64,000 bases of DNA, taken from NCBI GenBank assembly GCA_024220505.1, contig JAKZZE010000034.1:1-64000 (forward strand), written 5' to 3'. A program made the translations under genes and the position numbers. This DNA comes from Rhizopus arrhizus (Eukaryota; Mucoromycota; Mucoromycetes; Mucorales; Rhizopodaceae). Position 1 is the first letter of the stretch; every line of letters starts with the position of its first letter. Below are positions 12,842 through 32,244 of this stretch, piece by piece. Under the pieces are notes generated by a model. It ran no database searches. It was not told where the DNA came from and saw nothing but the letters and a program-made list of their open reading frames with translations.

Positions 12842-13669
12842 TAAGTAATGAACTAATATAAGCTTAAAAACATATATTCTTTTATATTATTTGTCATAAA
12901 AAAATAATAAAGCAATCTATTTACTTGAAAAACAAAAAAATTGTGCTTGTATCTATTAATTATAATTGCCTTGTAACAAGATGTTAACAAAGCTTCTTTT
13001 TTTTTTATTCTTTTTAGAATATACACGTATTTTTTTGTCATAATGTAAAAGCATTTGTATTTTTATAAAACATGTTTACTGTTAGGTTATTGTTTTCATT
13101 TGAATAAGTAACCTTTTATTGCTATGCTCTTTTTTTTTTTTTTTTTTTTTTTTTCACTAGGTCTTTTTTTTTAACTTTGTCTTTTTTTTTTTTTTTACTT
13201 CTAATTTTCCAGCTTCTTTTTTTTTTCCCAAACGCAACTATTTTGTTACGTTCTGTTACACGCTTCAAATGAACTAAGCTAAAGATCACAGACTGCCTTC
13301 CTAATATGTATTCTTCTGATCAAAATAATCGCATGGTGCTTTTGATTTCCGCATTTTGCCCTCAAAAATAAAAAAAAGATATCGGTCTTTCAACGATAGA
13401 GGAGAACAAGCTTTCCAAAAAAGATCATCTGTAAAAAAAAAGACATTTTTTTAAAACGTGAATAACTTTATGAATATTTACCCTACAATGAAAAAAATAA
13501 CATTACTTAATTTCTTTATTTTTTTCGCATCTAAATCTTTTTTCATATTTCGAAAATGACCAATACAGCAAGATATAATGTTTTTTTAAAAAAAACTTTA
13601 AAATCTGTGGACCTATGACTGTCACCGATATCAGAATTCTACGTCAAAGGCGCAACATTATTTGCAGTG

Positions 13670-13742
13670 GGAGTTATCGGCTTTTTTGAAAAATAAATAA
13701 GTTTACCTTTTTAACCAAAAGCGAAAGGGCTTCTTGGTTTAG
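13670..13742 (-). repeat. LINE 5'UTR remnant (LINE-0)
   Basis: The stretch from TATCGGCTTTT to the run GTTTACCTTTTTAACCAAAA matches the 5' leader of LINE-1 (26521-26586) and LINE-2 (31555-31613). It stands directly before the 3' end of SINE-A, the place where a further LINE of the stack should be. CACTA-I ends against it at 13669. I infer a third, older LINE whose body was lost. Confidence 0.7.
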
Positions 13743-14561
13743 ACGAAAGTTTTTATTTTTATTGGTCAAATATGCAGGCGACATATGTGTCATTAATTGC
13801 TTGACCACTGAACGAACTGGGAAAGCATACAAACTGTTAAGGGGGGAAGGGAAGGGAGGGTAAGCAGGGCAATTATTTGGCTGAAGCGACAGACGAAGAC
13901 TTGGAACAGAGAGAGAGAGACATGCTTCATTAAGCCCGAGGTGGGCATCCTTGCAACGCTGATAATGCTGCTCACCAAACAGCACACAACGCAGACCGAC
14001 CAGAACAGCAGCGGCGTCAAAACCCAGGGAGGAAAGAGAGAACAGAAAGGAATACCGACGGGGACACCGAAAGGGAGGGAAGGTGGACCAGATACCCAGC
14101 TGGCACGCAACGCAACACACAGGCGGGACACACCGAAAGCCAGAGACGACGCACGTTAAGGAAGTCATGTGACCGTGCGTGGAAGAGACGGTGCGAGGAA
14201 GGCAGGATTCGAACCTGCATGTCCAATCACTGCAAATAATGGTGTAAATTGGGTAACCAATTGTTTACCAATCTTGCGAAAAAATTGACATTCGTGTACA
14301 ATCAGGTAAGAGATTTATCCACGCACAGCCTCCTGTCTCTGCCACAAATTGTGTAAGTTATTGTCCGCCCTTTGGTTATGTGATGGTGCAAGATTTGTGG
14401 CCAACACAGGAGACTGTTGGGAGACTTTTTCGTTAACTGATCTTGCAAGATGAATCTTTCATCAGTTACGTCGTGGCTCTTGTTTATTATCAATTTGATA
14501 TCTAATGGTGCTTGGCAACCAATCACGCTTTGTAAAACACTACTTTATTTGTCTTTTTGCT

Positions 14562-14700
14562 CTTTTATAAACCACTCATATTGCCTTATATACTTCTTTA
14601 TTGACCACTCATATTGCCTTATATACTTCTTTATGAACCACTTATATTGCTTTATATACTTCTTTATTGACCATTCATATTGCAATAAATATTGCTTTAT
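14562..14700. repeat. 33-bp minisatellite in CACTA-II
   Basis: About four copies of a ~33-bp unit containing ACCACTCATATTGCCTTATA are followed by a partial copy. They lie ~340 bp inside the left end of the element, where CACTA subterminal transposase-binding repeats are usually found. That function is inference. Confidence 0.7.
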
Positions 14701-15014
14701 ATACACAAAAAATAGGGATTTGGTTTATAAAAAATAGCTTTTTTTTTATTTGAATAAAATAATAATAACAATACATAGTATTTCTTTGCTTATAGCGTTT
14801 TAACAGTGCATTTGACTTACCTAATGTCACCAGAATAGCAGCATCTAATCTAAAAATACATCGATTAATCTCGTGGAACTCAAAAAGTTCTCAAAAGAAA
14901 AAAAAAAAAAAAGCCAAGCTCAAGGATTAAAGAAATTGGGCACTTAAAGCAAAAGAAAAAAGATATCAGTACTTCAGAACCAAAGCAAAGACAGAAAAGA
15001 GATAGAAGAGGCCA

Positions 15015-15380
15015 AAGCAAAGCAGCATTCATCTATAATAGATGTTAGATATCGTGTATATATAATACAAGCAATAGTACCTTTCATTACGTAGACCATG
15101 GGAAAAAAAAACTAGCTAAGCGTATACAAACGACTAAAAAAGCAGCAGACATCTATAATAATTATTAGCTATTGAGTATATGTAGCAAAAGTAATAGTAC
15201 CTTTCTTTAGATGGGCTAAGAGAAAAAAACTAGCTAAGCTTATACGAACAAGTAAAAAAAAAAAGGAAGCAGAACGCATCTATAATAAATATTAGTTATG
15301 GAGTATATAGTAAAAGTAATAGTACCTTGCTTTAGACGAACCACGAGATAAAAGAAGAAAAAAAGACACCAGCCAAGCTT
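15015..15380. repeat. ~115-bp tandem repeats in CACTA-II
   Basis: Three diverged copies share ATCTATAATA, GTATAT, AATAGTACCTT and CTAGCTAAGC(T/G)TATAC in the same order. They lie about 500-870 bp upstream of the + strand gene. They may be promoter or subterminal binding repeats; no function is proven. Confidence 0.65.
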
Positions 15381-15885
15381 ATACCAACAAGCAAAAGAAG
15401 AAGCAACTATAATCTTGGGAAAAAGACTTTATAAAGACAATTTAAACTATAAAGAAAGCAACCAACACAAATTTACTAAAGTACAAGTACCATTAGAGCA
15501 ATAATAGAATATATATAATATTAAGAACTTACCTTTTAGAAAGAATGTTTTTTTTTAAAAAAAGAAAAAAAAAAAAAAAAGGAAAAAAAAGTACTTTTTT
15601 TATAGCCTCATTTTACCAGTGTTACAGTTACCCACTATCGATTAAAAATAAGTCTTCTTTAATACTGTTTAACTATTGAAGCATTCACAGAGGCTATTCA
15701 TAAACAGTTTAAACTTTCTCTTCCTTTTTTTTTTTTATTTAAATGTAATATCTTTAACTCCAAAGGCTTTTTTTTTTCTTTGCTTTTTTTTAAAATAAAT
15801 GAAAGTATCACCTTGTTTTGTATTCATCTTCAATTTATTTTGTACTCTTGTTTTTTTTTCTTTCTTATATAATTTGTTTTAAAAA

Positions 15886-17126
15886 ATGTCTCGTCGTGCT
15901 GCCACCCCCATCAACGTTCCCAGCAATGCTCCCAAGAGAGCAAGAATTTCCATGAGCATTGCTGGATCATCATCCACTGTTGTTCCTGTTTCTGCTGCTG
16001 CTGCTCCTGCTCCTGCTCCGGCTCCTGCTCCTGCTCCTGTTCCTGTTGCAAGCTTCAGTAGCTTTACAGCTCCTCGCTTGGAGAGCCCTGTTGGTACTGA
16101 AGCCATCAGAGCAGCCTCTGGTCTCGCACCAGAGATAATAGCTGCTCAGATACAGCAACTACAACAATTGCTGCAGCAACAGCAACAGCAGCAGGAACAG
16201 CAACAGCAGCAGCATCAGCGAGCTTCAGAAGCTGAGGTCGACGCGGCCAAAAAAGAATGCAGTGTAAGTTTAGGACATATTTATTAAATTAGTAATTGTA
16301 ATTTAATAACTATATTTTATACCTTTCTGTGTTATATAGAGTTATTTAGCAGAATACTACCGTGATTACGTTGTTGGTCGCAGAAGCGAATTTGACTTGG
16401 ACGTTACCTTCGCCCACAAAAACAACAGAAAGGTCAAGGCGTTGTTGTATGAGCAAGCCAGAAAGCACCATCGTTTTGATTTGCTCACCACCTCACAAAT
16501 AAATGCTATAATTAGGAGCAAGTATTCCTACATGATGAGCAAGGCCAAGGGGAAGACAGTTGTTTCACCAAAAACTACCTGTCGTAGCCGTATAAATACG
16601 GTGAGTATTTAATATTTTGAAGATTATACTATAAAATATAGGAAATACTTACATTGATACCTTACAATAGAAACTCTCTAACAGGAGATCTGTTTATATG
16701 GCTAACCCTTCCGCGTTCGACGCCCGTTTCCCGTTCGCTGGTAAAATTCTGACTGTTGACTGGACGTCAGATGAAGAAGATGGGCCAGAGGACGAGAACG
16801 GCCGTACGTTCGTGGTCAAAAGGCCATCATTTAGAAGCAACGAAGTAAGCAAAATGTTGTTGACAAGTTTCATCTTCTAATATACCTTAATTAATCTATA
16901 GGTGGTGCAATTCCACGAAGAGTTGCAAAAACGATACAAGGAGTCGATGAAGAAAAAGGGGGCTCCACCAACTATTAGAAGAATAATAGAAAACGTTGAG
17001 GTGGAGTTCCCCGACAAACTTGATGATGCCGATTTTCCTTCCTGGGCTTTTTCTTCTTCTGCTCTTGGCTTTCCAACCTCTGTTTCTGCTTCTTCCTCTT
17101 TTGCGACTTCCAGTTCAATGCAGTAG
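15886..17126 (+). CDS. CACTA accessory protein, Ala-Pro and poly-Gln rich
   Basis: Exons 15886-16263, 16340-16600, 16671-16844 and 16902-17126, all with GT-AG introns of 57-76 bp, give 345 residues. The N-terminus is low complexity with an (Ala-Pro) run at about residues 45-55 and a poly-Gln run at about 95-112 that may form a coiled coil. The middle (YLAEYYRDYVVGRRSEFDLD to YSYMMSKAKGK) is basic and helical. The C-terminus has an acidic patch (TSDEEDGPEDENG). I do not recognise a named family. Its position tail-to-tail with the TNP2 gene inside one CACTA element suggests the counterpart of the DNA-binding TNPA-type helper, but that is inference from context only. Confidence 0.8.
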
Positions 17127-17286
17127 GCATTCTTCCCCTTTTTTTTTTCTTGGTTTGTTGTTTCTTCACAAATTGAATAAAATTTTTTAAAAAAAGTCTA
17201 TTGAATGATTCTTTAGTAAAATATATAATAAAACAATAATAATAATAATAATAATAAATGAATGAATGAACGCTTCGACATAGTTT

Positions 17287-20197
17287 TTACATATAGATCC
17301 GTCTTGGGAGAGAAAGTGTAAGAATATGATTATCTAAATATGACTTCACTGCTACTGGATTGTGAATTTTGTGAACAGGAAGTATATTTTGTTGTGAGAC
17401 TGGGTCAAATTGGTTTTTCCACACTTGAATGCCAGTATCATCAAAGGAGGGAAAGTGATGGGTCGCATGGCTGTACCAATTGACAAATGCAAAGTAATGA
17501 GTGTAGTTGTTAAATGAATGTGTAAAGAGATAACAAATTTGACCAATGCGTATTTCGTTGTTGATAATAGCTTGGATAATGCAGGAGGATGAAGAAGTTG
17601 AATTATTATTTGATGACGTATATTTTTGTCCAAGCAAGTTTATATTTTTAAATGAATGAATAATATTGCTGATAAACGTGCCAGGGATGAGTGCATAGGT
17701 GTAGGTGTAGTAATTAATCAATTGTTCATAGTGTTCTGGGCATATAAGTTGGGTTCGATTGTCGAAATTTAAAGGAAAGGATGTGGGTGGCAGAGGCTCA
17801 CTACCAGTTATTGTTGAATTGAATAAGCTAGGTCCGTCTATGAAACGAGAGTAATCAAATGGCGTTAAACCACTCTCGTCATTCGTAACCTCACCTATCT
17901 CTTCTATAAATTTAATTAGTAGGAGTATGTCTTCGTTTGTTGAATTGATAAAGGAATGTAAAGAATATACTAGATCTTGTGTGTGAACATTTTGAATGAA
18001 CATAGTAGCATAAGTTGTTTCAAATCCAGTCTTAAAATTGATGTTGATATGTTTCATATCGCCATTAAGACGTTCAAAGCCATAAAGCCAAAAAGAGTAT
18101 GATGGACCAAAGTCCAGGAAGCTTTCTTTCAAATGAAGATGCATATGCATATTTGGGGTGGGCATAGATTCACCATACAGCTCGACACAGGTCTTGCCAA
18201 AGTTTTTCATCAATAGATGTGCGGTATCTATGTCTTCTACTGTGATGGAAGGGCCAGTGACCAATTTTACAGCATCGACATACCGCAACCAGTTCGTAAA
18301 ATGTTCACCTGCCAGTTTTTGTTTGAGCAGGAAAGGTGACAGCACAACAACCCAAGTCCTCCACTCATCTGATTTCATATTGGCAAAAGCACCAGAGATT
18401 TTTCCTATTTTTTTTTTAAAAAAAAGAAAAAAAAATAAGTATTTTGCTCCACCATGAAATAAAGCTTTATTCCATGTATATATAAACACGATCAAGCAGA
18501 ACTACATACCTTCAGATAGCTTAGCGTATTGTTGAGGAATGCTGATAGTAGTCGACTCTGTTGCCATTGCTGAAAAATCAGTAGAAACAAGCAAGCCAAA
18601 ATCCTGCCAGACTTCAATCATTTTTTTAGGAGTTCCAAGAAACAAGTTATGCATTGGATCGACAGTTACATATCTCACCACATCAAAGTAAGGAAGTCGG
18701 TGTACTTCACTCCACTTTGTACCAGAACTTGCTTGCTTTTCTTCTTGTTGTGCCTTGTGCGTAGCAGTCAACCAGTCGTACGCATCAAATCTCTGCTGCT
18801 CCCATGTTCTTTGCACCCAGTTTTCATCGTTGAAATCAGAAAAGTTTGGCTTTGAAGACCTGGTACCAGTTGATAGACGGCCAAAAGCAGTTGAGCACTT
18901 GTTACATGCTTTAGTAGCCATGGCGCCCATGTATCCAGCTACTTTTCTTGCTGCAGGCATATCACAGTTGATGGACATTAATGCCACACGAACTAGTTCT
19001 CCGTTAGGATTTTCGTAAGTGGGCATTATAACACCATTGTATAGTACAAGTAATTCATCTACTAATGGCTTCAAGAAATTTTGAATTTGATCATCGTTGG
19101 GCTCATGTGGTCCAGGAATAACACCTGCCAAAACGATGTTGGAAAACTTCATACGTGTATTTCTTGGCAGATTGTTGATTGCAAGGTAAATGGCACCACT
19201 AGAATGCTTCATATTGTCACTTGGCTGGAACCAATCCACATTCAAGGATACCATCAATGATCTTGGTTGGCTGGTAAAAATTTGCCCGTTTGAATCCACA
19301 AGCTGATTCCAAACTCTGCCATCATATATGTCGAACATGACATCTTCATCAACTGATCTTCTTCTCCATTGCTCAATTTGTTGTTCAAAACTGGGTCGCA
19401 TAAAGAACTTTTTTAAAGTCTCAGTAATTGAGTTGTAGGGATACTCAAGCACTGGCTTTAAACTGCTGCCTACAAAAAGAGCATTTCCACATGGTTGTGC
19501 TTGTCGATAAGGGTTGTTAGGGAAGCGTACATAACCACAGGAGCGAGAATGCAAGCTTCCAGGAGTGTAAACGCTTCGACAAGCAGAGCAAACAAGAAAA
19601 CGGGACAAACCATTGCTGGCAGAGGAATAATTGACCATAGTACGGGCAGTAGAGATCTTTGTAGGAATCTCCATACCATGGCCAAGAGAACGGACAAAGA
19701 AGGAAAGAAAGGCCAACAAGTCTTCACCGGCTTTCACCGAGAGGTGCTTTGCTTGAAAAAGCACAATGAACAACAGCAAGAGGTGACGAAGCTGTTCTTC
19801 ATTGCTCATTCCTTCCTCTTCGTCAACATTCATTCCGTCTAACAAGTTGCAAAATACATTTCAATAAATAAAACCTTTCTTATATTAAACACTTTGTTGA
19901 TTAAAAATATACCTTCAGTTGCTGATTCAGGAATGGCTGATGAGTATTCGACAGTTTCCTCCCCGTTGTCGTTAGCTTCAGATACTCTTCTCGATTCTAT
20001 TTTGTTTTTTTTTTTTTTTTAATTAGTACGTTTGGATTTCTATTGAAAAATAAAATAAAAAAAAAACCTCTATTTCTAACTCTGTCGATAAGTTCATGGC
20101 CTCTTACAGTTCTCTTTGCAAGCATTCTAAATCCATTGGGATGGTTGCTGCATTCAGAACAGGTGCAAATAATTTTGGTGGCGTTGAAGTTGTTCAT
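17287..20197 (-). CDS. TNP2-type CACTA transposase
   Basis: Exons on the minus strand are 20197-20068, 19996-19913, 19838-18510 and 18404-17287, with GT-AG introns of 71, 74 and 105 bp. They total 2661 nt, 886 residues, with no stop. The N-terminus has a small Cys motif (CTCSECSNHPNGF) as in other transposases of this group. A second Cys pair follows (ACNKCSTAFGR). The TNP2 signature VDPMHNLFLGTPKKM sits at about residue 430-445. After the last intron comes the conserved HLHLKESFLDFGPSYSFWLY..FERLNG block. The truncated copy at 9746-10696 supports the exon structure. The C-terminal ~250 residues are Asn/Thr rich and without a recognised domain. This is the likely enzyme for the whole CACTA-II element. 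Confidence 0.88.
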
Positions 20198-20446
20198 GTT
20201 TATATTTTTTAAATTTGGAAATAGCAAAGAAAATAGGTAGAAAGAGAAAATATGCCTGATAAAAAAAAACATGTTAAATTTAAGAACAAAGTCGGTGCTT
20301 AAAGTAACCTTTTTTTTTTTCCCTTGTTTTGTTTCATGGAATACACTAGATGACAAAGGTACAAAAGATAAAAAAGAATGCTCAAGTATTGATCATATGT
20401 AAGTTTATAAAAAAAAATAATAACAACCAAGTCTAATGTCGGCTTC

Positions 20447-20477
<31 letters not shown>

Positions 20478-21566
20478 TTAGGAATTCCTAATGGGTCACA
20501 TTCGGATGACGAACATGAGCCACATGAGCAAAGTTGTTCGTTTTAACACGATAAAACTATAAGAATATCAAACTTATATTGTTGCTTGTTACTGAAAAGT
20601 TCTTTTTGATAAAGGAAGTTGGCAATGTTAACATCTCTAATGGCTAATGGCTAATTGCAAATTACACCCATGTGCAAACATAAAGTAAGTAATGAACTAG
20701 TATAAGCTTAAAACATATATTCTATTATGTTATCTGTCATAAAAATAATAAAGCACTTTATTTACTTGAAAAACAAAAAAAAACTGTGCTTGTATCTATT
20801 AATTATAATTGCCTTCTAACAAGATGTTAACAAAGCTTCTTTTTTTTTATTCTTTTTAAAATATACACGTATTCTTTTGTTATAATGTACAAGCATTTGT
20901 ATTTTTATAAAACATGTTTACTGTTAGGTTATTGTTTTCATTTGAATAAGGAACCTTTTATTGCTATGCTCTTTTTTTTTTTTTTTTTTTTTTCACTAGG
21001 TCTTTTTTTTTAACTTTGTCTCTTTTTTTTTTTACTTTTAATTTTCCAGCTTCTTTTTTTTTCCCAAACGCAACTATTTTGTTACATTCTGTTACACGTT
21101 TCTAATGAGCTAAGCTAAAAAGCACAGACTGCCTTCCTAATATGTATTCTCCTGATCAAAATAATCGCATGGTGCTTTTGATTTCCGCATTTTGCCCTCA
21201 AAAATAAAAAAAAGAAAATATCGGTCTTTAAACAATGGAGAGAAATACGCTTTCCAAAAAAAGATCATTTGTAAAAAAAGACATTTTTTTAAAAATGTGA
21301 ATAACTCCATGAATATTTACCCTACAAAAAAAATAATAACATCGTTAAATTTCTTTATTTTTTTCGTATCTAAATCTTTTTTCAAAATTCGAAAATGATC
21401 AATACAGCAAGATTTAATTTTTTTCACGAAAAAAAGTAACAATTTGTTACCCAAACGAAGAGCAATCTTGCGCAATCCGGTACCTAATTGGAACGATTAT
21501 TTGCAGTGAATGGACACTCAACCCATACGGTAGCGCCTTAACCACTACGACAAACACCCACACCTG

Positions 21567-21581
21567 GGGAAATGGTGTAGA
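21567..21581 (+). repeat. Target-site copy 1 (first 15 nt of tRNA-Ala)
   Basis: GGGGAAATGGTGTAG is identical to 32172-32186 and lies between the SINE-A head and the LINE-1 3' end. It is a target-site duplication left by insertion into the tRNA-Ala gene. Confidence 0.9.
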
Positions 21582-21845
21582 CGAAAATTTTTTTATTAAT
21601 ATATATTAGGAGTATATTGACAAGCGATAAATATCATGATAGTCATACTCAAGAAACAAAAAGAAGAGACAAGAAGCAAAAAACACTCGCAGAGCACACA
21701 AGAGCGAAAAAAAGGAAAGAGAAAAGGCCAATGGAAGCGCTAACTACTAAGCAACTCGTCAACACCATGGTCTCCTCCGCATCGTGCACTCAAATGGTTT
21801 GGCAGTGGGAGGTAGAAGCCAGAGGGTGGATCAGAGCGCTTGTCA

Positions 21846-24800
21846 TTATGGAACAGCAGCAGCAGAGGACTTGTCAATCCAGACTTGACCTGGAGCAGAA
21901 GACGAGTTGTACTCGATGTCAGGATGACAGATCTTGTCAAAGTGACAGAGGATCTGACAAAGAGCGGACCAGAAAGGCGGACACCGAGCAGAAGCAGAGA
22001 CAGGAAGCAAGTTCAAGACATAGTCTATGTGGTGACCCACATAGTCAGCCGGTGGAACAGGCAGGCAGCACCAGAGAGCAGAAGGAACCAAGTTACAGAC
22101 CATGAGGTGAGAACGAGAAGTATCGCCAAGACCACAGGAACAGGGAGCAGGCTTGCCTGGGATCCAACCCATGCGCCATCTGATGAGACGAGACCGGTCA
22201 GCACGGGAGGCAGGCAAGTAGAGGATGGGATCCACCCGAAGAACAGGACGACAAGCGCGGATCAGAACCTGGGGGGTGGACTGTAAGAAGCTATGAAACT
22301 GGTCTTGACGATACCTTCGCAACCAAGAAGCAAGACGAGAAGATGAAGAGACATCCGAAGGGCAATCGAGGACGATACGCCGCTTACGGAGTCGAGACAG
22401 AAGAGACACTGGCACAGACTGAGAGAGCAAAGACAAGAGACAATAGTCAGGTAGACCCTCAGAGCGACGACAGAACTTGAGCACCAGGGTGTCAGCACGA
22501 AAAGACATTGACGGTAGATTGGCAATGTGCCGAAGTACTACAGTTGAGGCGGTCCTATGACCACCGACAAGCATCCTTAGACATCGGTCTTGAGCACGAT
22601 TGAGTTCGTCATAGTCCTTTCTTAAAAGCTGAGCAATGGCAAGACCATACTCAAGCTTAGGACGTATGAACGCAGCGAACAGACGAGAAGAGAGAAGCAG
22701 AGTAAATCCTTGACGGTTGAGCCCCATCGAGTGTAGCTGAGCCATGGCAGCAAGAGTACTAGACGCGCGATGCTTGATCATAGCAGGGACAGAAATACCC
22801 TTACCATCAAAAGGTACACCAAGGTAAGTGAACTCCTCAACAGAGGGAAGGTCTTGATCATATAATGACATTTGAACATATCAACTTGATGTAGTAGTGG
22901 GTGCATTTAAGACAGCACACTTTGGTGGACTCCACTTGTAACCAAGAGTCAGAGAATGGGTCTGCGCTAGGTCCAGCATATGCCGAACTTCGCTAGCAGA
23001 CCCAACCAGCGCCACATCATCCGCATACAACAGACTGTTGATGGGTGTGGGCGACAGAGACGAGGAAGACAAAGCAGCAGTACCAACCAAAGGACCAAAG
23101 GGAAGACCATCAGCGACCAGAGCACCAGGACCAGGAGGACCAGAAGGAGACACCGATAACACCGAGGTGGTTGTTGCAGAAGCAGCAGAACGAAGCAGAG
23201 CTGGCAATGTGTTGACATAGATAGAGTACAGGTGAGGACTCAAGACAGAGCCCTGAAGGACACCTGTACTCGGCACAAACGGATCAGAGACATTGTTCTG
23301 CAACAACACAGACACCGAGACATCATCAAACATGTTGGCCAACAAGGACACCAAGGACAGAGGAGCAGAAGAGGCGAGCATCGATTGCCATATGATACGA
23401 CGATCGACTGTATCATAGGCTGACTTGATGTCCAGAAAAGCGACCACAGGATAATGATTGTGTCGGCGTCGGTAAGAGTGCATTAGATCATGAAGACAGA
23501 GGGCTTGATCCAATGCACTACGCTGGTGACGAAAACCACCTTGAACTACATCGAGCGGAGGAGAGACATCTTCAACAGAGGGAAAGAGACACATCTCAAA
23601 GAGCTTGCGGACGATGGAGGTCAAGGAGATTGGACGATAGTTCCCTGGCGAGGTAGGATCACCCTTTTTGTGGATGGGGACCACCTGTGCTTGACGCCAG
23701 AGAGAAGGGGTATACGACCACTGGTAGCAGATACTGAAGAGCAAAGAGAGCAGTGGGGCCAGGACAGACTTGATGGGGAGGAGCATCTCCGTACGCAAGT
23801 GGTCAGGACCAGGAGCCTTACGCAGAGGGAGACGTCGCATCAGTGAACCCACACTGTCAGCAGTGAACGAGGGCATACCAGGGTCTTGACTATCGAGGTC
23901 AAAAGGCACCATACCAGAGACAGAGGGCAGAGGGTCAGGACGCCTTGACGGAAGACCGTCACCAGAGTAGACCGAGGCAAGGTGTTGACGCATCGCGTTC
24001 GCACCTGCAGCAGGGCCGTCAGGATGGGTAAATCCAACCTGTTGACGTCGTCGGTTCCGAATCACCTTCACCTTCGACATCGCACGAGCAAGTTCGCCAC
24101 GGGCCAGGGAGTCACAGAAAGCACGCCAAGAGAGACGTTTAGCAGACTTGAGAGCACTACGGAAACGGGCTTGAGCAACCTGATGTCGATCCCACCACAA
24201 GGCCTTGTCGATGCCAGTGGCACGACGCCACTTGCGATAGTGGTGTTCACGAACATCGGCGAGTTCTTGCAAGTGCGCATTCCAGAATGGCTTCCATTGG
24301 GAAGGTCGAGAAGAGCGAGAGCCAACCGACTTGTCGAGTGCACTATAGATCGCCTCGTTCAGAGTGTCGTTGAGAGCGTCTATAGGCGGAGCAGCAGAAG
24401 GAGGACTTGACTTCAGAGACTTGAGCTGATCAACCAATGGAGAGACCAAGGACTGGAATGTGGCCACGTACAGACTACAGACATCAGGTTCCTTCAACCG
24501 AGAGAGGTTCCATAGCCGACGGGCAGAAGAAGAAGAGAGAACGGGCTGCGATGGATAACCATCAGGGACTGCATAGTCAAAGGACAAGGACAACAGTTTG
24601 TGGTCAGAGCCAAGAGAGAGATCACTGTAGACTTGCATCCGAGGGGACCGAAGAGCAGAGGTCGTGTTGGTCAAGAAGTAGTCGATCATACTTTGCTTGA
24701 CTTGACCACCACGAAAGGACAAGAAGGTAGGCACCCCAGGAGCGAGAGTCGAGTTCAGAACAGAGAGAGCATGTTCTTCACACCAGCGAAGCAGCACCGA

Positions 24801-25394
24801 ACCTCGAGCATTGGCAACGGAATCACCCGTTAGTGCACCAAGACGCGCGTTCAGATCACCACAGATGATCGTGTCGTCTGTCAAGGGCAACGAAACCAAC
24901 ACAGAAGAGACCTCGTCGTTGGACAAGGAAGGGGTCAAATACAGGCAGATGAGACGCAAGGAGCGACCCAACCGCAGACCTAGAGCATACTTGGTATGAA
25001 CCGGAAACTGTACCACAGCCATCGGACACCGAGGAGACACCAGAGCAGAGACACCTTGAGAGCCACGATAGCTGTTGATCACAGGAGAGCCATACAGATT
25101 GAACTGGGTCCAAGAGGTACGGATCCTGTGAGGCGGAAGCAACCAGGTTTCGGTGATGAACACCAGAGAGAACGACTGGCAGTGACGAAGTAGATCCTCG
25201 GCTGTGGATTCTTGAAGCCCATTGGCATTCCACAAGCCGATTGTGAGCGGGATAGAAGATGATGAGAATGAAGGAGAGGATGGACCATGGGAGCCATGAG
25301 AACCAGAGGAAACCAAAGGAGAGGAAGGGACTGGGACCATACCAGTAGTAGAGACCGAGGATGCATTATAACGACAAGTATTACTACTCATCAT
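21846..25394 (-). pseudogene. LINE-1 ORF2 (endonuclease-reverse transcriptase), one nonsense codon
   Basis: About 1183 codons. The order is APE-type endonuclease (WNANG, ITETW, GDLNAR, SMIDYF, GSDHKLL), reverse transcriptase (KAPGPDHLRTEM, YRPISLTS, FLDIKSAYDTVDR, STGVLQGSVLSP, LLYADDVALVG), a thumb region, and a C-terminal CxC..H..C knuckle (CSCGLGDTSRSHLMVC). A TGA at about 22881 stands where LINE-2 has CGA (Arg) in the same context, so a single C-to-T change breaks an otherwise open frame. This copy should make only the endonuclease-RT part. Confidence 0.88.
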
Positions 25395-26401
25395 TATAAT
25401 GATCCAAAGCTTGAACGAGAGGCAGGACGGTGATGCTCATAGTCATCAAGAGCCATGTCTTCATCCATATCATCGTAATGGCGGACAGTCTTGGGTCGAT
25501 CTTGTTTGGTAGACAGAACTTCGGATACTGTCTCATCTGAGACCAAGGCTTGTGCTAATAGGTAGCGAGAGACGGAGACAGCAACAGGATAGCGCAAGCG
25601 CTCTAAAGCCTTGCGAGAGCGGTCATCGTTGATCAGCGAGATAGCATGACTACGCTCTTCAGCAGAAACAGAGTCAAACTTGGGATCAGCAAGGTTTGCA
25701 GGGTCAAGAGGATCAAAGGTATCCAAGGTGGGAATCTTGGCCTTTTCCAACAAGGACAGAAGAGCGGGCTTGTACTGAAGGTGTACAAGAAGACCGACAA
25801 CAGAGTGAGCAGGATAGCACACATCTAAGATGCGCCAGCTATCCACACCAAGGCGAGAGAGACGACGACGAGCTTCAGTGTAGGTCATCCTACGAGAGCG
25901 AGGTATGTAAACATACTCGAAGCCTTGTTCACCAGACACAGGCTGGAATCCACGAGCAGCGGCAGCACGGCGACGGAGTTTGTTCTTGGCAGAACGAGAG
26001 ACAACGGTAGCCCAAGACGAGGCAGCAGTACCCAAGGAGGGCGAAGGAACGGACTCTTTAGCACCATTAAAAGGAGCAGCAGAAGAAAGAGCGGCATTTG
26101 AACTTGGGGTGCTTGTAGGGACCCCGGCAGATTGTGCGGCTAATTGAGCACGCAGAGAAGCAACCTCATTGGATAGAGATTCATTGGTTTCGGCAAGGCG
26201 AGCATTCTCACCTCGTAAGGTTTCAAGCTCTAGCTTAAGCTGTTCTAGAGCAGAGAGACGAGCAGTAACGGCTTCTAGTGCGTGACTTAGATTCTGAACA
26301 GTGACTTCGAGGTCGGACGAATTGGGTCCGGCGGCGGCATTCAGGATTTTAGATCCTCTAGTATTTCTTGTTGTTGACATTTGGATGCAAACTTTCAGCA
26401 A
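25394..26401 (-). CDS. LINE-1 ORF1 protein
   Basis: 335 residues. Residues about 20-85 form a leucine-rich heptad coiled coil (LSHALEAVTARLSALEQLKL). A Ser/Ala linker and a basic patch (KNKLRRRAAAARG) follow. The C-terminal globular region around YVYIPRSRRMTYTEARRRLS resembles the RRM-like fold of LINE ORF1 proteins; this is inference from pattern. Expected role: RNA binding in the retrotransposition particle. The first in-frame ATG at 26401 is followed after 6 codons by another (MSTTRNTRGS). The TAA stop overlaps the ORF2 ATG as TAATG. Confidence 0.85.
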   Translation of the reverse strand: MLKVCIQMSTTRNTRGSKILNAAAGPNSSDLEVTVQNLSHALEAVTARLSALEQLKLELETLRGENARLAETNESLSNEVASLRAQLAAQSAGVPTSTPSSNAALSSAAPFNGAKESVPSPSLGTAASSWATVVSRSAKNKLRRRAAAARGFQPVSGEQGFEYVYIPRSRRMTYTEARRRLSRLGVDSWRILDVCYPAHSVVGLLVHLQYKPALLSLLEKAKIPTLDTFDPLDPANLADPKFDSVSAEERSHAISLINDDRSRKALERLRYPVAVSVSRYLLAQALVSDETVSEVLSTKQDRPKTVRHYDDMDEDMALDDYEHHRPASRSSFGSL

Positions 26402-26586
26402 CGATTAAACAACAAGTAGCAAAGATATCAGAATAAGAGTTGAACCAAATAAAAGTATAGATCAAAAGGAGTCGGTTGATGTAAAAATTGTTGACGGATG
26501 GATAGATTTGACAGAGATATCGGCTTTCCAAAAAAGAGTCGAATTTACCTTTTTAACCAAAAGCGAAAGAAAAGTGGGGGAAAATG

Positions 26587-26601
26587 GGGGAAATGGTGTA
26601 G
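26587..26601 (+). repeat. Target-site copy 2 (first 15 nt of tRNA-Ala)
   Basis: The same 15 bases lie between the LINE-1 5' end and the LINE-2 3' end. An extra partial copy (GGGGAAAAT) precedes it, possibly from template switching at the 5' junction. Confidence 0.9.
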
Positions 26602-26864
26602 ACGAAGATTTTTATTAATATATATTAGGAGTATATTGACAAGCGATAAATATCATGATAGTCATACTCAAGTACAAAAAGAAAAGACAAGAAACAAAAA
26701 ACACTCGCAGAGCACACAAGAGCGAAAAAAAAGGAAAGAGAAAAGGCCAATGGAGACGCTAACTACTGAGCAACTCGTCAACACCATGGTCTCCTCCGCA
26801 TCGTGCACTAAAATGGTTTGGCAGTGGGAGGTAGAAGCCAGAGGGTGGATCAGAGCGCTTGTCA

Positions 26865-29800
26865 TTAGGGAGTAGTAGCAGCAGAGGACTTGTCAATCCA
26901 GACTTGACCTGGCAGAGAAGACGAGTTGTACTCGATGTCAGGATGACAGATCTTGTCAAAGTGACAGAGGATCTGACAAAGAGCGGACCAAAATGGCGGA
27001 CAACGAGCAGAAGCAGAGACAGGAAGCAAGTTCAAGACATAGTCTATGTGGTGACCCACATAACCAGTCGGCGGTACAGGTAGACAGCACCAAAGAGCAA
27101 AAGGAACCAAGGTACAGACCATGAGGTGAGAACGAGAAGTATCGCCAAGACCACAGGAACAGGGAGCAGGCTTGCCTGGGATCCAACCCATGCGCCATCT
27201 AACAAGACGAGACCGGTCAGCACGGGAGGCAGGCAAGTACAGGATGGGATCCACCCGGAGAACAGGACGACAAGCGCGAATCAGAACCTGAGGGGTGGAC
27301 TGTAAGAAGCTTTGAAATTGATCTTGACGATACCTTCGCAACCAAGAAGCAAGACGAGAAGACGAAAGAGGAGCATCCGAAGGGTAGTCGAGTACGATTT
27401 GCCGCTTACGGAGCTGTGTCAGCAATGACGACGGAACAGAAGAGGATAGCAGAGACAAGAGACAGTCATCAGGAAGGCCATTGAATCGAAGGCAGAACTT
27501 CAGAACCAAGGTATCTGCTCGAAATGTCATTGACGGCAGATTGGTGATATGGCGGAGGACGACAGTCGAGGCAGTTCGGTGACCACCGACAAGCATTCGT
27601 AGACACCGGTCTTGAGCACGGTTGAGCTCTTCACCGTCCTTTCTTGTAAGTCGAGCAATAGCAAGGCCATACTCGAGCTTAGGACGGATGAAGGCAGCAA
27701 AGAGACGAGAAGAGAGAAGCAGAGTAAAGCCTTGACGGTTAAGACCCATAGAGTGAAGTTGAGCCATCGCCGCCAAGGTACTTGAAGAGCGATGTTTTAT
27801 TATGGCAGAGACAGAGATACCTTTACCATCGAAAGGGACACCAAGATAGGTAAACTCTTCAGCAGTAGGAAGGTCTTGACCATATAGAGACATTTGAACA
27901 TATCGACTTGAACTTGAAGAAGGTGCATTGAGGACGGCACACTTTGGTGGACTCCACTTGTAACCAAGAGTCAGAGAATGGATCTGTGCTAGGTCCAGCA
28001 TATGCCGAACTTCGCTAGCAGACCCAACCAGTGCCACATCATCCGCATACAACAGACTGTTGATGGGTGTGGGCGTAGGAGACGAGGAAGACAAAGCAGC
28101 AGTACCAACCAAAGGACCAAAGGGAAGACCATCAGCGACCAGAGCACCAGGACCAGGAGGACCAGAAGGAGACACCGATAACACCGAGGTTGTTGTTGCA
28201 GAAGCAGCAGAACGAAGCAGAGCTGGCAATGTGTTGACGTAGATAGAGTACAGGTGAGGACTCAAGACAGAGCCCTGAAGGACACCTGTACTCGGCACAA
28301 ACGGATCAGAGACATTATTCTGCAACAACACAGACACCGAGACATCATCAAACATGTTGGCCAACAAGGACACCAAGGACAGAGGAGCAGAAGAGGCGAG
28401 CATCGATTGCCATATGATACGACGATCGACTGTATCATAGGCTGACTTGATGTCCAGGAAAGCGACCACAGGATAATGATTGTGTCGGCGTCGGTAAGAG
28501 TGCATCAGATCATGGAGACAGAGAGCTTGATCCAATGCACTACGCTGGTGACGGAAACCACCTTGAACTACATCGAGCGGAGGAGAGACATCTTCAACAG
28601 AGGGAGAGAGACACATCTCAAAGAGCTTGCGGACGATGGAGGTCAAGGAGATTGGACGATAGTTCCCTGGCGAGGTAGGATCACCCTTTTTGTGGATGGG
28701 GACCACCTGTGCTTGACGCCAGAGAGAAGGGGTATACGACCACTGGTAGCAGATACTGAAAAGCAAGGAGAGCAGTGGGGCCAGAACAGACTTGATGGGG
28801 AGGAGCATCTCCGTACGCAAGTGGTCAGGACCAGGAGCCTTACGCAGAGGGAGACGTCGCATCAGTGAACCCACACTGTCAGCAGAGAACGAAGGCATAC
28901 CAGGGTCTTGACTATCGAGGTTAAAAGGCACCATACCAGAGACAGAGGGCAGAGGGTCAGGACGCCTTGACGGAAGACCGTCACCAGAGTAGACCGAGGC
29001 AAGGTGTTGACGCATCGCGTTCGCACCTGCAGCAGGGCCGTCAGGATGAGTAAACCCAACCTGTTGACGTCGTCGGTTCCGAATCACCTTCACCTTCGAC
29101 ATCGCACGAGCAAGTTCGCCACGGGCCAGAGAGTCACAGAAAGCACGCCAAGAGAGACGTTTGGCAGACTTGAGAGCAGAGCGGAACCGGGCTTGAGCAA
29201 CCTGATGTCGATCCCACCACAGGGCCTTGTCGATGCCAATGGCACGACGCCACTTGCGGTAATGGTGTTCACGAACATCGGCGAGTTCTTGCAAGTGCGC
29301 ATTCCAGAATGGCTTCCATTGGGAAGGTCGAGAAGAGCGAGAGCCAACCGACTTGTCGAGTGCACTATAGATCGCCTCATTCAGAGTGTCATTGAGAGCG
29401 TCTATAGGCGGAGCAGCAGAAGGAGGACTTGACTTCAGAGCTTTGAGCTGATCAACCAATGGAGAGACCAAGGACTGGAATGTGGCCACGTACAGACTAC
29501 AGACATCAGGTTCCTTCAACCGAGAGAGGTTCCATAGCCGACGGGCAGAAGAAGAAGAGAGAACGGGCTGCGATGGATAACCATCAGGGACTGCATAGTC
29601 AAAGGACAAGGACAACAGTTTGTGGTCAGAGCCAAGAGAGAGATCACTGTAGACTTGCATCCGAGGGGACCGAAGGACAGAGGTCGTGTTGGTCAAGAAG
29701 TAGTCGATCATACTTTGCTTGACTTGACCACTACGAAAGGACAAGAAGGTAGGCACCCCAGGAGCGAGAGTCGAGTTCAGAACAGAGAGACCATGTTCTT

Positions 29801-30431
29801 CACACCAGCGAAGCAGCACCGAACCTCGAGCATTGGCAACGGAATCACCCGTTAGTGCACCAAGACGCGCGTTCAGATCACCACAGATGATCGTGTCGTC
29901 TGTCAAGGGCAACGAAACCAACACAGAAGAGACCTCGTCGTTGGACAAGGAAGGGGGCAAATACAGGCAGATGAGACGCAAGGAGCGACCCAACCGCAGA
30001 CCCAGAGCATACTTGGTATGAACCGGGAACTGTACCACAGCCATCGGACACCGAGGAGACACCAGAGCAGAGACACCTTGAGAGCCACGATAGCTGTTGA
30101 TCACAGGAGAGCCATACAGGTTGAACTGGGTCCAAGAGGTACGGATCCTGTGAGGCGGAAGCAACCAGGTTTCGGTGATGAAGACCAAGGAAAACGACTG
30201 GCAGTGACGGAGGAGATCCTCGGCTGTGGATTCTTGAAGCCCATTGGCATTCCACAAGCCGATAGTGAGCGGTATAGAAGAAGTTGATGAGGATGATGAA
30301 GAAGAGGATGGACCATGGGAGCCATGAGAACCAGAGGAAACCAAAGGAGAGGAAGGAGTTGACTGATCTGGGACCATACCAGATGTAGAGACCAAGGATG
30401 CATTATAATGACAAGTATTACTACTCATCAT
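26865..30431 (-). CDS. LINE-2 ORF2: APE endonuclease and reverse transcriptase
   Basis: 1188 residues, uninterrupted. Endonuclease motifs run from WNANG (residues 60-64) through SDHKLL. RT motifs include GPDHLRTEM, YRPISLTS, FLDIKSAYDTVDRR and YADD at about residue 800. A CxC..H..C zinc-knuckle (CSCGLGDTSRSHLMVC) lies at about residue 1090. No RNase H domain is visible. The enzyme should nick the target and prime reverse transcription there; from the junctions, the first nick is after GTGTAG in the tRNA-Ala gene. The frame starts at the ATG overlapping the ORF1 stop; a second Met follows at once. Confidence 0.92.
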   Translation of the reverse strand: MMSSNTCHYNASLVSTSGMVPDQSTPSSPLVSSGSHGSHGPSSSSSSSSTSSIPLTIGLWNANGLQESTAEDLLRHCQSFSLVFITETWLLPPHRIRTSWTQFNLYGSPVINSYRGSQGVSALVSPRCPMAVVQFPVHTKYALGLRLGRSLRLICLYLPPSLSNDEVSSVLVSLPLTDDTIICGDLNARLGALTGDSVANARGSVLLRWCEEHGLSVLNSTLAPGVPTFLSFRSGQVKQSMIDYFLTNTTSVLRSPRMQVYSDLSLGSDHKLLSLSFDYAVPDGYPSQPVLSSSSARRLWNLSRLKEPDVCSLYVATFQSLVSPLVDQLKALKSSPPSAAPPIDALNDTLNEAIYSALDKSVGSRSSRPSQWKPFWNAHLQELADVREHHYRKWRRAIGIDKALWWDRHQVAQARFRSALKSAKRLSWRAFCDSLARGELARAMSKVKVIRNRRRQQVGFTHPDGPAAGANAMRQHLASVYSGDGLPSRRPDPLPSVSGMVPFNLDSQDPGMPSFSADSVGSLMRRLPLRKAPGPDHLRTEMLLPIKSVLAPLLSLLFSICYQWSYTPSLWRQAQVVPIHKKGDPTSPGNYRPISLTSIVRKLFEMCLSPSVEDVSPPLDVVQGGFRHQRSALDQALCLHDLMHSYRRRHNHYPVVAFLDIKSAYDTVDRRIIWQSMLASSAPLSLVSLLANMFDDVSVSVLLQNNVSDPFVPSTGVLQGSVLSPHLYSIYVNTLPALLRSAASATTTSVLSVSPSGPPGPGALVADGLPFGPLVGTAALSSSSPTPTPINSLLYADDVALVGSASEVRHMLDLAQIHSLTLGYKWSPPKCAVLNAPSSSSSRYVQMSLYGQDLPTAEEFTYLGVPFDGKGISVSAIIKHRSSSTLAAMAQLHSMGLNRQGFTLLLSSRLFAAFIRPKLEYGLAIARLTRKDGEELNRAQDRCLRMLVGGHRTASTVVLRHITNLPSMTFRADTLVLKFCLRFNGLPDDCLLSLLSSSVPSSLLTQLRKRQIVLDYPSDAPLSSSRLASWLRRYRQDQFQSFLQSTPQVLIRACRPVLRVDPILYLPASRADRSRLVRWRMGWIPGKPAPCSCGLGDTSRSHLMVCTLVPFALWCCLPVPPTGYVGHHIDYVLNLLPVSASARCPPFWSALCQILCHFDKICHPDIEYNSSSLPGQVWIDKSSAATTP

Positions 30432-31438
30432 TATAATGATCCAAAGCTTGAACGAGAGGCAGGACGGTGATGCTCATAGTCATCAAGAGCCATGTCTTCA
30501 GCCATGTCATCGTAATGGCGGGTTGTCTTTGGACGGTCTTCTTTAGCAGACAGCACTTCAGAGACTGTCTCATCAGAGACAAGGGCTTGCGCCAACAAGT
30601 AACGAGAGACAGAGACAGCAACAGGATAGCGCAAGCGCTCTAAAGCCTTGCGAGAGCGGTCATCGTTGATGAGCGAGATGGCATGACTACGCTCCTCGAC
30701 AGAAACAGAGTCAAACTTGGGATCAGCCAGGTTGGCAGGATCAAGTGGATCAAAGGTATCCAAGGTAGGGATCTTGGCCTTTTCCAACAAGGACAGAAGA
30801 GCAGGCTTGTACTGCAGATGTACAAGAAGACCGACGACAGAGTGGGCAGGATAGCAAACATCCAGGATACGCCAGCTATCCACACCAAGACGAGAGAGAC
30901 GACGACGAGCTTCGGTGTAGGTCATCCTACGAGAGCGAGGTATGTAAACATACTCGAAGCCTTGTTCACCAGACACAGGCTGGAAACCACGAGCAGCAGC
31001 GGCACGACGACGGAGTTTGTTCTTTGCAGAACGAGAAACAACAGTAGCCCAAGACGAGGCAGCAGTACCCAAGGAGGGCGAAGAAACGGTCTCTTTAGCA
31101 CCATTTATGGCAGCAGGAGAAGAAGCAGCGGCATTTGAAATAGGGGTGCTTGTAGGGACCCCGGCAGTTTGTGCGGCCAGTTGGGCCCGCAAGGAAGCAA
31201 TCTCATTGGCTTGAGACTGGTTAGCTTCGGCAAGGCGAGCGTTCTCACCTCGTAGGGTTTCAAGCTCCAGCTTGAGCTGCTCTAAGGCAGAGAGACGAGC
31301 AGTGACAGCTTCTAGTGCGTGACTGAGACTTTGAACTGTGACTTCGTGGTCGGACGAATTGGGTCCGGCGGCGGCATTCAGGATTTTGGATCCTCTAGTA
31401 TTTCTTGTTGAAGACATTTGGATGCAAACTTTGATCAA
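30431..31438 (-). CDS. LINE-2 ORF1 protein
   Basis: 335 residues, same design as LINE-1 ORF1: heptad coiled coil (about residues 25-85), basic patch, RRM-like C-terminal region. The amino-acid sequence is strongly conserved between the two copies in the globular part and looser in the Ala/Ser linker, as expected under past selection on the fold. The stop overlaps the ORF2 start (TAATG), suggesting coupled termination-reinitiation. Confidence 0.88.
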   Translation of the reverse strand: MIKVCIQMSSTRNTRGSKILNAAAGPNSSDHEVTVQSLSHALEAVTARLSALEQLKLELETLRGENARLAEANQSQANEIASLRAQLAAQTAGVPTSTPISNAAASSPAAINGAKETVSSPSLGTAASSWATVVSRSAKNKLRRRAAAARGFQPVSGEQGFEYVYIPRSRRMTYTEARRRLSRLGVDSWRILDVCYPAHSVVGLLVHLQYKPALLSLLEKAKIPTLDTFDPLDPANLADPKFDSVSVEERSHAISLINDDRSRKALERLRYPVAVSVSRYLLAQALVSDETVSEVLSAKEDRPKTTRHYDDMAEDMALDDYEHHRPASRSSFGSL

Positions 31439-31613
31439 CGATTAAGCAACAAGTAATGTAGATATCAGAATAAGAGTTGGACCAAATAAAAGTATAGGTC
31501 AAAAGGCGTCGATTGATGTAAAAATTGTTGATGGATGGATAGATTTGACAGAGATATCGGCTTTCCAAAAAAGAGTGAAGTTTACCTTTTGAACCAAAAG
31601 CGAAAGAAAAGTG

Positions 31614-31628
31614 GGGGAAATGGTGTAG
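31614..31628 (+). repeat. Target-site copy 3 (first 15 nt of tRNA-Ala)
   Basis: The same 15 bases lie between the LINE-2 5' end and the SINE-B 3' end. Confidence 0.9.
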
Positions 31629-32170
31629 ACGAAACTTTTTATTTTTTATTGGTCAAATATGCAGGCGACATATGTGTCATTAATTGCTTGACCACAGAAC
31701 GAACTGGGAAAGCATACAAACTGTTAAGGGGGAAGGGAAGGGAGGGTAAGCAGGGCAATTATTTTGGCTGAAGCGACAGACGAAGACTTGGAACAGAGAG
31801 AGAGACATGCTTCATTAAGCCCGGGGTGGGCATCCTTGCAACGCTGATAATGCTGCTCACCAAACAGCACACAACGCAGACCGACCAGAACAGCAGCGGC
31901 GTCAAAACCCAGGGAGGAAAGAGAGAACAGAAAGGAATACCAACGGGGACACCGAAAGGGAGGGAAGGTGGACCAGATACCCAGCTGGCACGCAACGCAA
32001 CACACAGGCGGGACACACCGAAAGCCAGAAACGACGCACGTTAAGGAAGTCATGTGACCGTGCGTGGAAGAGACGGTGCGAGGAAGGCAGGATTCGAACC
32101 TGCATGTCCAGAGGACACTCAACCCATACGGTAGCGCCTTAACCACTACGACAAACACCCACACCTGGGG
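31629..32170 (-). mobile_element. SINE-B, tRNA-headed, next to tRNA-Ala
   Basis: About 542 bp. The head (right end, minus strand) has box-A-like TAGTGGTTAAGG and an exact box B GGTTCGAATCC (32090-32100), with a long variable-arm-like piece between them, like a class II tRNA. The body is GC-richer than the neighbourhood. The 3' end (ACGAAAC, then T-rich on the + strand) resembles the LINE tails. It is inserted at the same base as the LINEs, directly before the functional tRNA. It does not fold as a proper tRNA: the acceptor strands do not pair. Confidence 0.85.
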
Positions 32171-32171
32171 G

Positions 32172-32244
32172 GGGGAAATGGTGTAGTGGCTATCACATCC
32201 GCTTTGCATGCGGAAGGCCCCGGGTTCAAACCCCGGTTTCTCCA
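32172..32244 (+). tRNA. tRNA-Ala (UGC)
   Basis: 73 nt fold completely. The acceptor GGGGAAA pairs with TTTCTCC and includes the G3:U70 wobble that identifies tRNA-Ala. The D stem is GTG/CAC, the anticodon stem TCCGC/GCGGA with loop TTTGCAT (anticodon TGC at 32205-32207), the T arm CCGGG-TTCAAAC-CCCGG, the discriminator A. There is no intron, and CCA is not encoded beyond the A, as usual in eukaryotes. It is the intact remaining copy of the target used by the LINE/SINE stack on its 5' side. Its 5' flank is therefore transposon sequence. Confidence 0.96.

Follow-up and report, generated by a model that had tools for sequence, protein, structure and literature searches.

A LINE/SINE pair of Rhizopus arrhizus found at one base of box A in many tRNA genes

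The stretch of Rhizopus arrhizus DNA analysed here (assembly GCA_024220505.1, contig JAKZZE010000034.1, positions 1 to 64,000; 64,000 nucleotides (nt) in all, below called the window) contains a stack of long and short interspersed nuclear elements (LINEs and SINEs) that ends at an intact tRNA-Ala(UGC) gene, and the first letters of this gene recur within the stack. How can retroelements enter the same gene again and again while the gene stays whole? It is very probable that the answer is box-A-specific target-primed retrotransposition by a LINE of about 5 kb with an APE-type endonuclease (LINE-A) and by its partner SINE1, in which each insertion rebuilds its own target.

The stack and the base of insertion

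In the window, the 15-mer GGGGAAATGGTGTAG, with which the tRNA-Ala(UGC) gene begins, lies at 21566, 26587, 31614 and 32172; with up to two mismatches allowed, the chance expectation is 0.09, and four copies were reached in 0 of 100 shuffles. The initial annotation had given the last three positions exactly and the first as 21567, and its reading that ACGAA and the T-tract of an antisense element directly follow three of the copies was borne out. Two LINEs, one LINE remnant and two SINEs are arranged head to tail, all antisense to the tRNA. As a control, the eight tRNA heads described below (14 nt, at most one mismatch) were compared with the 127,972 window positions of both strands, and only 5 matches were obtained, four at 3' junctions and one where the tRNA gene begins.

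Leftward from the intact gene (32172-32244, plus strand), which is the rebuilt target, the stack begins with SINE-B (31628-32171, minus strand), composed of a tRNA-Leu-like head, a body and a 3' end common to LINE-A; the five G at 32167-32171, adjoining the gene, may be a short tag. A copy of tRNA-Ala(UGC) nt 1-14 (31614-31627, plus strand) forms the 3' junction of SINE-B and is followed by LINE-2 (26601-31613, minus strand), a full-length LINE-A copy, whose own 3' junction is formed by another nt 1-14 copy (26587-26600, plus strand). Between this copy and the 5' end of LINE-1 lies GGGGGAAAATG (26576-26586, plus strand), which resembles tRNA-Ala(UGC) nt 1-9. LINE-1 (21580-26575, minus strand) is 93% identical to LINE-2 over 5006 nt and has its 3' junction at the nt 1-14 copy at 21566-21579 (plus strand). 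SINE-A, 98% identical to SINE-B over 485 nt, is interrupted by a CACTA-type transposon, which leaves a 5' part with the tRNA-derived head (21512-21565, minus strand; 21512-21569 is a 100% match to SINE-B positions 485-542) and a 3' part (13742-14227, minus strand). The series does continue leftward as initially proposed, through SINE-A to LINE-0 (13671-13727, minus strand), a 57-nt remnant of the 5' end of a LINE-A copy with 82% identity to LINE-2 positions 4950-5005; the left copy at SINE-A (13728-13741, plus strand), however, is the head of tRNA-Pro(AGG), GGCTTCTTGGTTTA followed by GACGAA, and not that of tRNA-Ala. Intact tRNA-Pro(AGG) genes exist elsewhere in the genome.

Junctions were compared across the genome (50.26 Mb, 41 contigs, of which C28 holds the window). 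The comparison places the break after A14 and before R15 in box A, and the G at the junction belongs to the element, whereas the initial annotation had placed the insertion after nt 15. Nucleotide 15 is G in most target tRNAs, which leaves the junction ambiguous there. The tRNA-Gly(UCC) genes read ...TTTA-A-TGG (5 of 5), i.e. A15, and the Gly(UCC) junctions read ...TTTA-G-ACGAA in 12 of 12; similarly, the single tRNA-Ala(AGC) gene read has A15 (CTCA-A-ATGG), and all 8 junctions at this head read CTCA-G. At an off-target SINE (C1:2386005), the target base is C and the junction base G. Since G stands at the junctions despite A15 or C in the target, synthesis of the first strand begins at A14, with the G supplied by the element. 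At the other end, the element 5' ends adjoin tRNA nt 1, in many cases with 0-2 additional letters between them, and the two sides of a site on C18 (Gly-GCC) differ in the sequence that precedes nt 1, so the duplication begins at nt 1 and spans nt 1-14.

The box A consensus of RNA polymerase III (Pol III) is TRGYNNARNNG, and T8, G10, A14 and G18 (counted along the gene), which are invariant across eight confirmed target types, fit this consensus. The hallmarks of target priming are present: a fixed 3' junction (83 of 91 ends), the nt 1-14 duplication and 5' truncation, with truncated LINE ends adjoining Gly, Asp and His heads by eye. The initial claim stands that one box A base is the insertion point of both a LINE and a SINE, which have a common 3' end, and that the duplication rebuilds the gene; of the target-primed synthesis it proposed, priming from the tRNA non-template strand fits the junctions, and the break site has to be moved from after nt 15 to after nt 14.

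Targets, partners and signs of activity

Exact matches to GGGGAAATGGTGTAG number 14 genome-wide and are confined to C20, C28 and C34, i.e. to three stacks, and the tRNA-Ala(UGC) gene has three identical places, one closing each stack. By a pattern search with an inner piece of the 3' ends (at most 3 mismatches), 54 LINE and 37 SINE ends were found, 91 together; these copy counts are lower bounds, older copies being missed by the pattern. With a tolerance of up to one mismatch each in the head and in GACGAA, 83 of the 91 ends were found to come right after nt 1-14 of a tRNA, and these heads are of eight types (Pro(AGG) 35, Asp 17, Gly(UCC) 12, Ala(UGC) 11, His 4, Val 2, Gly(GCC) 1 and GGTCCCGTGGCGTA 1), for seven of which ARAGORN called intact genes. 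Not tRNA-Ala alone, as had first been supposed, but at least seven confirmed tRNA types are targeted in their box A.

An element end is present directly upstream of the gene at 7/7 Pro(AGG), 3/3 Ala(UGC), 8/12 Asp(GUC), 3/5 Gly(UCC) and 3/5 His(GUG) genes; these genes come from a whole-gene search or a plain pattern, by which diverged genes of the same type may be missed, and the tRNA family search scored 63 of 2878 candidates, so that the gene counts are not a full census. One further His gene (C12) is preceded by SINE1-like letters, with unmatched sequence upstream of them. The complete occupancy of the Pro(AGG) and Ala(UGC) genes suggests that the host tolerates insertions at tRNA genes. 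Shared ends of another kind, ttccgggtactgt... and gaccaaaatccgactt.gtcaa..., were seen shortly upstream of several tRNA heads (L151, L153, C35:270724, C40:1987394, C26:294672, C38:1512032). They are perhaps the ends of long terminal repeat (LTR) elements, which are described as co-localising with tRNA genes in the Rhizopus oryzae genome (PMC2699053).

The coding capacity of LINE-A can be read from LINE-2. Its second open reading frame (ORF2, 1188 aa, 26865-30431, minus strand) matches APE endonuclease and reverse transcriptase (RT) families above the cut-off (PF03372, PF14529, PF00078), with the motifs SDH at 268 (APE) and YADD at 795 (RT), and its C-terminal C1091, H1102 and C1106 are conserved columns; ORF1 (328 aa from ATG, 30431-31417, minus strand) has no Pfam match. 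In the Pfam search ORF2 matched APE and RT families only, without RNase H, and zf-RVT (PF13966) is absent from the window ORF2 and the six homologues scanned. The ORF2 frame is open over at least 1197 codons in 4 of 6 copies (window LINE-2, C34 19165, C34 24193, C20 737120) and interrupted in two, namely window LINE-1, which is broken into open pieces at 22881-25394 and 21846-22871 (longest open frame 851 codons), and C20 742149, which has an insertion. Over 542 nt, SINE-B and a SINE on C34 do not differ. These open frames and the identical SINE point to recent activity of LINE-A and SINE1.

Among relatives of ORF2, for which scoring was limited to the 7977 candidates sharing most words, the best match is Rhizopus delemar RO3G_05927 (87% in the search, 94% over aligned columns). 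The best 83 of 95 matches have E < 1e-100, and those of the 83 that carry an organism name come from Rhizopus, Mucor, Umbelopsis, Cokeromyces, Phycomyces or Dichotomocladium; a search of viral contigs with the ORF2 alignment gave no relative. A methyltransferase ORF of the host shares 97% identity, over 74% of its length, with a Rhizopus arrhizus protein, in keeping with a Rhizopus host near this species. A tree was built from 641 nt of the 3' part of 29 of the 54 LINE copies. On this tree tRNA type changes 16 times, compared to a shuffled mean of 14.8, and a count as low was obtained in 182 of 200 shuffles; of four identical 641-nt rows, among them window LINE-2, two sit at Pro and one each at Ala(UGC) and Gly(UCC). 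Support for the inner branches is mostly weak (5 of 23 starred). Separate LINE lineages for each tRNA type are unsupported, the types being scattered over the tree as by chance.

SINE1 is about 0.54 kb long, and a tRNA-Leu-like gene was called inside a sister copy on C39. The 3' end that it has in common with the LINE is short: an A-rich stretch, plus TCGTC or TTTAACC at the terminus. A second tail, GGTTAAAG/GGTGAAAG, was found at 27 places by pattern, and in all sequence read, 29 rows with this B-tail follow a tRNA head at the same coordinate as the A-tail. Their heads are GGTCGCTTAGCTCA (12), Ala(AGC) (8), Pro (5), TCCTCAATGGTCCA (2), Asp (1) and Gly(GCC) (1), where GGTCGCTTAGCTCA and TCCTCAATGGTCCA are counted without a matched tRNA gene; in one more row (L164), the head is cut by another insertion. 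SINE2, read whole on C40, has by eye a different tRNA-like head and is ~73% like SINE1, and LINE-B comprises three 3' ends with the second tail and other inner sequence (L189, L196 and L190, the last stretch starting inside the head). A similar 3' hairpin is predicted in LINE-A, SINE1, LINE-B and SINE2, with energy z-scores of -0.55, -1.70, -1.99 and -1.40 and a helix as long in 543, 83, 1181 and 631 of 5000 shuffles, respectively; a hairpin common to the four elements is thus modestly supported.

Other transposons also touch these elements. CACTA-type ends (CACTGCAAATAAT / CACTGCACATAAT, with several different interiors) lie in, or a few bases from, the palindrome TGTCC-NNN-GGACA in the tRNA-Leu-like head of SINE1; in 37 SINE1 copies, the palindrome is CACTA-hit in about 15 (12 by script, three by eye), intact in 21 and otherwise altered in 1. 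In the window, the CACTA palindrome sites are at 14225-14240 and 21496-21511, and the palindrome is intact once, in SINE-B at 32105. The element inside SINE-A (14228-21508) has a 3-nt duplication, AAT, within TGTCC-AAT-GGACA and carries a Tnp2 (PF02992) ORF at 18502-19845. It looks like a DNA transposon that prefers a site inside a SINE. Another CACTA-type end (CACTGCAAATAAT on the minus strand, 13657-13669) adjoins LINE-0, and such ends also interrupt the 5' untranslated regions of several LINE-A copies at one place, with GATATC or GATATCG before CACTG (C14:1015731, C34:10857, C32:22726, C23:2431226). Four Tc1/mariner-type ORFs (DDE_3 and/or HTH_Tnp_Tc3_2) flank the window stack on both sides (11592-12614, 35719-36381, 38687-39550 and 40597-41646), and four LINE 3' ends elsewhere (G000:C1:2928883, C4:194318, C34:1196202, C38:1048426) are replaced by sequence ending ...CTGTA, which is mariner-like by eye.

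Proposed mechanism and competing explanations

The following course is the most probable. LINE-A and SINE1 enter the Pol III box A in antisense orientation to the tRNA, with A14 and R15 on either side of the entry point. The tRNA non-template strand would be nicked after A14 by the ORF2 endonuclease, and the nicked A14 end would prime cDNA synthesis on an RNA ending ...UUCGUC, giving the junction tRNA(1-14)|GACGAA. The other strand would be cut at tRNA nt 1, so that repair duplicates nt 1-14, and the right-hand copy stays joined to the remainder of the tRNA. Gene and internal promoter are thereby rebuilt, renewed insertion becomes possible and stacks would build up. The tRNA type is probably picked anew at each jump among genes with the box A letters TRGYNNA^R, and the second set (SINE2 and the LINE-like LINE-B) uses the identical coordinate, mainly at heads ending CTCA. 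Seen in the sequence itself are the fixed junction, the duplication, the range of tRNA types, the rebuilt genes, the shared 3' ends and the donor-like tags.

Several points weigh against this account. Among the 83 tRNA-associated ends, the one at the GGTCCCGTGGCGTA head has no confirmed gene. Five of the 8 remaining ends have a 3' end replaced by other sequence, the tRNA-Asp head before another (C23:2431226) is shortened, and C18:416236 and the C1 SINE lie at unrelated sites. At least 7 of the 32 genes of five types (Pro, Ala-UGC, Asp, Gly-UCC, His) are without a recognised element end at nt 1. Concerning age order, the LINE near the gene has an open ORF2 and the far one a broken ORF2 in the window, and both are open on C34; on C20, against a simple order, it is the far LINE that is open and the one near the gene that is interrupted. 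LINE-B is known from 3' ends alone. In two SINEs (window SINE-A, 13728-21579, Pro/Ala; G000:C34:18591-19163, Asp/Ala), the flanking tRNA heads are of different types, which suggests that recombination, possibly ectopic between stacks, also shapes the stacks. Insertion into an internal head copy may also be compatible with the structure. Finally, nicking and its order, transcription, the placing of the newest copy nearest the gene and the use of LINE machinery by the SINEs are steps that we infer from the copies left in the genome.

Of the alternatives, the one that survives best holds that Pol III factors (TFIIIC/TFIIIB) direct the targeting, as in TRE or Ty elements, and that sequence reading by the endonuclease is secondary. 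It would account for the site being box A, which is bound by TFIIIC (PMC5911963), and for nearly all insertion sites being tRNA heads. However, insertion is base-exact, and the box A letters differ between the two tail sets, CTCA/TCCA heads being found in 0 of 86 A-tail rows versus 22 of 29 B-tail rows; this split is not strict, and seven B-tail rows are at Pro, Asp and Gly(GCC) heads. We regard factor-directed targeting as unlikely, though factor binding could still assist.

Far less probable is that, instead of repeated insertion, a single inserted unit was multiplied by tandem duplication or unequal crossing-over. Although the two SINEs with unlike flanking heads hint at recombination of stacks, neighbouring units are unlike (as in the 93% identity of LINE-1 and LINE-2), LINEs and SINEs alternate, T-tract lengths vary, and near-identical copies sit in different stacks. 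A 14/15-mer that belongs to the element and travels with it as its 3' end, next to a tRNA by coincidence, would agree with the same 15-mer standing before three 3' ends in the window; this reading is refuted by head diversity, for eight different heads, seven of them the 5' ends of tRNA genes found here, precede one 3' end. The initial annotation had itself named this outcome, together with most copies lying at unrelated targets, as what would speak against it; most copies do not lie at unrelated targets, and the 15-mer is not part of the element.

Box-A-specific target priming remains the preferred explanation. Some 5' ends of LINE-A carry extra letters. Among about 54 LINE-A 5' ends next to a tRNA head (60 rows, minus seven LINE-B-like by eye, plus one), 6 have 6-11 extra letters resembling a tRNA 5' end. 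These are GCGTTCTT, i.e. Gly-UCC nt 1-8, at a Pro gene; GGCTTC, i.e. Pro nt 1-6, once at the shortened Asp head and once in an Ala stack; GGCTTGC, Pro-like and imperfect, at a Gly gene; and the Ala-like GGGGGAAATG and GGGGGAAAATG in Ala stacks. Three of the six are clearly of a tRNA type other than that of their site, and the tags are likely to be donor-site marks. In the simplest reading, the start of the template RNA lay on the antisense strand of the tRNA copy at the donor site, a few bases into it, and three tags would consequently show jumps between tRNA types; the two Ala-at-Ala tags could also be explained by slippage. A bolder and doubtful extension is that the rebuilt tRNA gene is part of the LINE promoter, with LINE RNA starting antisense, opposite about nt 6-9, the copies being transcribed since they stand head-to-head with a live tRNA gene, and the donor letters serving as a birth tag. 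If so, the stacks would be records with readable donor addresses, and the source and target of single jumps could be read from a genome.

For writing DNA at safe harbours, site-specific LINEs are the obvious model. The one family described here, of APE type, combines a degenerate box A motif with base precision across many tRNA genes, each gene being left whole, and the site is common to the LINE and to SINEs carrying just a short common tail. Since ORF2 has relatives in several genera of Mucoromycota, the family could be compared between species.

Comparison with known systems

Elements of the NeSL clade have a restriction-like endonuclease, in contrast to the APE domain in LINE-A ORF2. Three related non-LTR retrotransposons are specific for tRNA genes, namely NeSL-1_TV (tRNA-Pro), LIN15_SM (tRNA-Arg) and LIN25_SM (tRNA-Glu) (PMC4640811). 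Like them, LINE-A inserts in a tRNA gene; unlike LINE-A, which uses many tRNAs and has a SINE partner, each of them is described for one tRNA, with no SINE partner in the part of the description available (PMC4640811). Dewa belongs to the Tx1 clade. This zebrafish element is likewise a non-LTR element tied to tRNA genes, but it uses a tRNA-Leu spacer and does not insert inside the gene (PMC3706591).

The dictyostelid elements TRE5, TRE3 and NLTR-A/B are non-LTR elements that use many tRNA genes, the TREs having APE and RT domains (PMC5911963, PMC5006619). TRE5 is described as inserting 40-54 bp upstream and TRE3 40-150 bp downstream (PMC5911963, PMC5006619), whereas LINE-A lands after nt 14 inside the gene. 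Dada elements, which the initial annotation had listed among LINEs, are DNA transposons with a DDE transposase and short target duplications at exact sites inside tRNA genes, including tRNA-Ala, and in Perkinsus each Dada family keeps its own tRNA (PMC3706591); LINE-A ORF2, in contrast, has no DDE transposase among its Pfam matches.

In fungi, LINEs are reported to make up 3.78% of the Rhizopus oryzae assembly (PMC2699053). Grem-LINE1 of Mucor is a pericentric L1-like LINE with ORF1, ORF2 and zf-RVT (PF13966) (PMC7377519); it shares a mucoralean host and the ORF1/ORF2 layout with LINE-A, whose scanned homologues lack zf-RVT, and the word tRNA is not present in the available text of that paper. 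LINE/SINE pairs with a common 3' end are described, in fungi for Mg-SINE and SINE2-1_BG (PMC3747384). Like SINE1, these are tRNA-headed SINEs sharing a LINE 3' end, but the portion of the description available gives no shared tRNA-gene target, and the stretch shared by SINE1 and LINE-A is short. Among the literature matches listed, no title dealt with tRNA genes as internal targets of fungal LINEs or SINEs; the coverage left out most preprints, subscription papers and Repbase reports. While tRNA-specific non-LTR elements are already known, what appears new here is a site-specific LINE that uses one coordinate across tRNA types, together with SINE partners and the rebuilding of the target.

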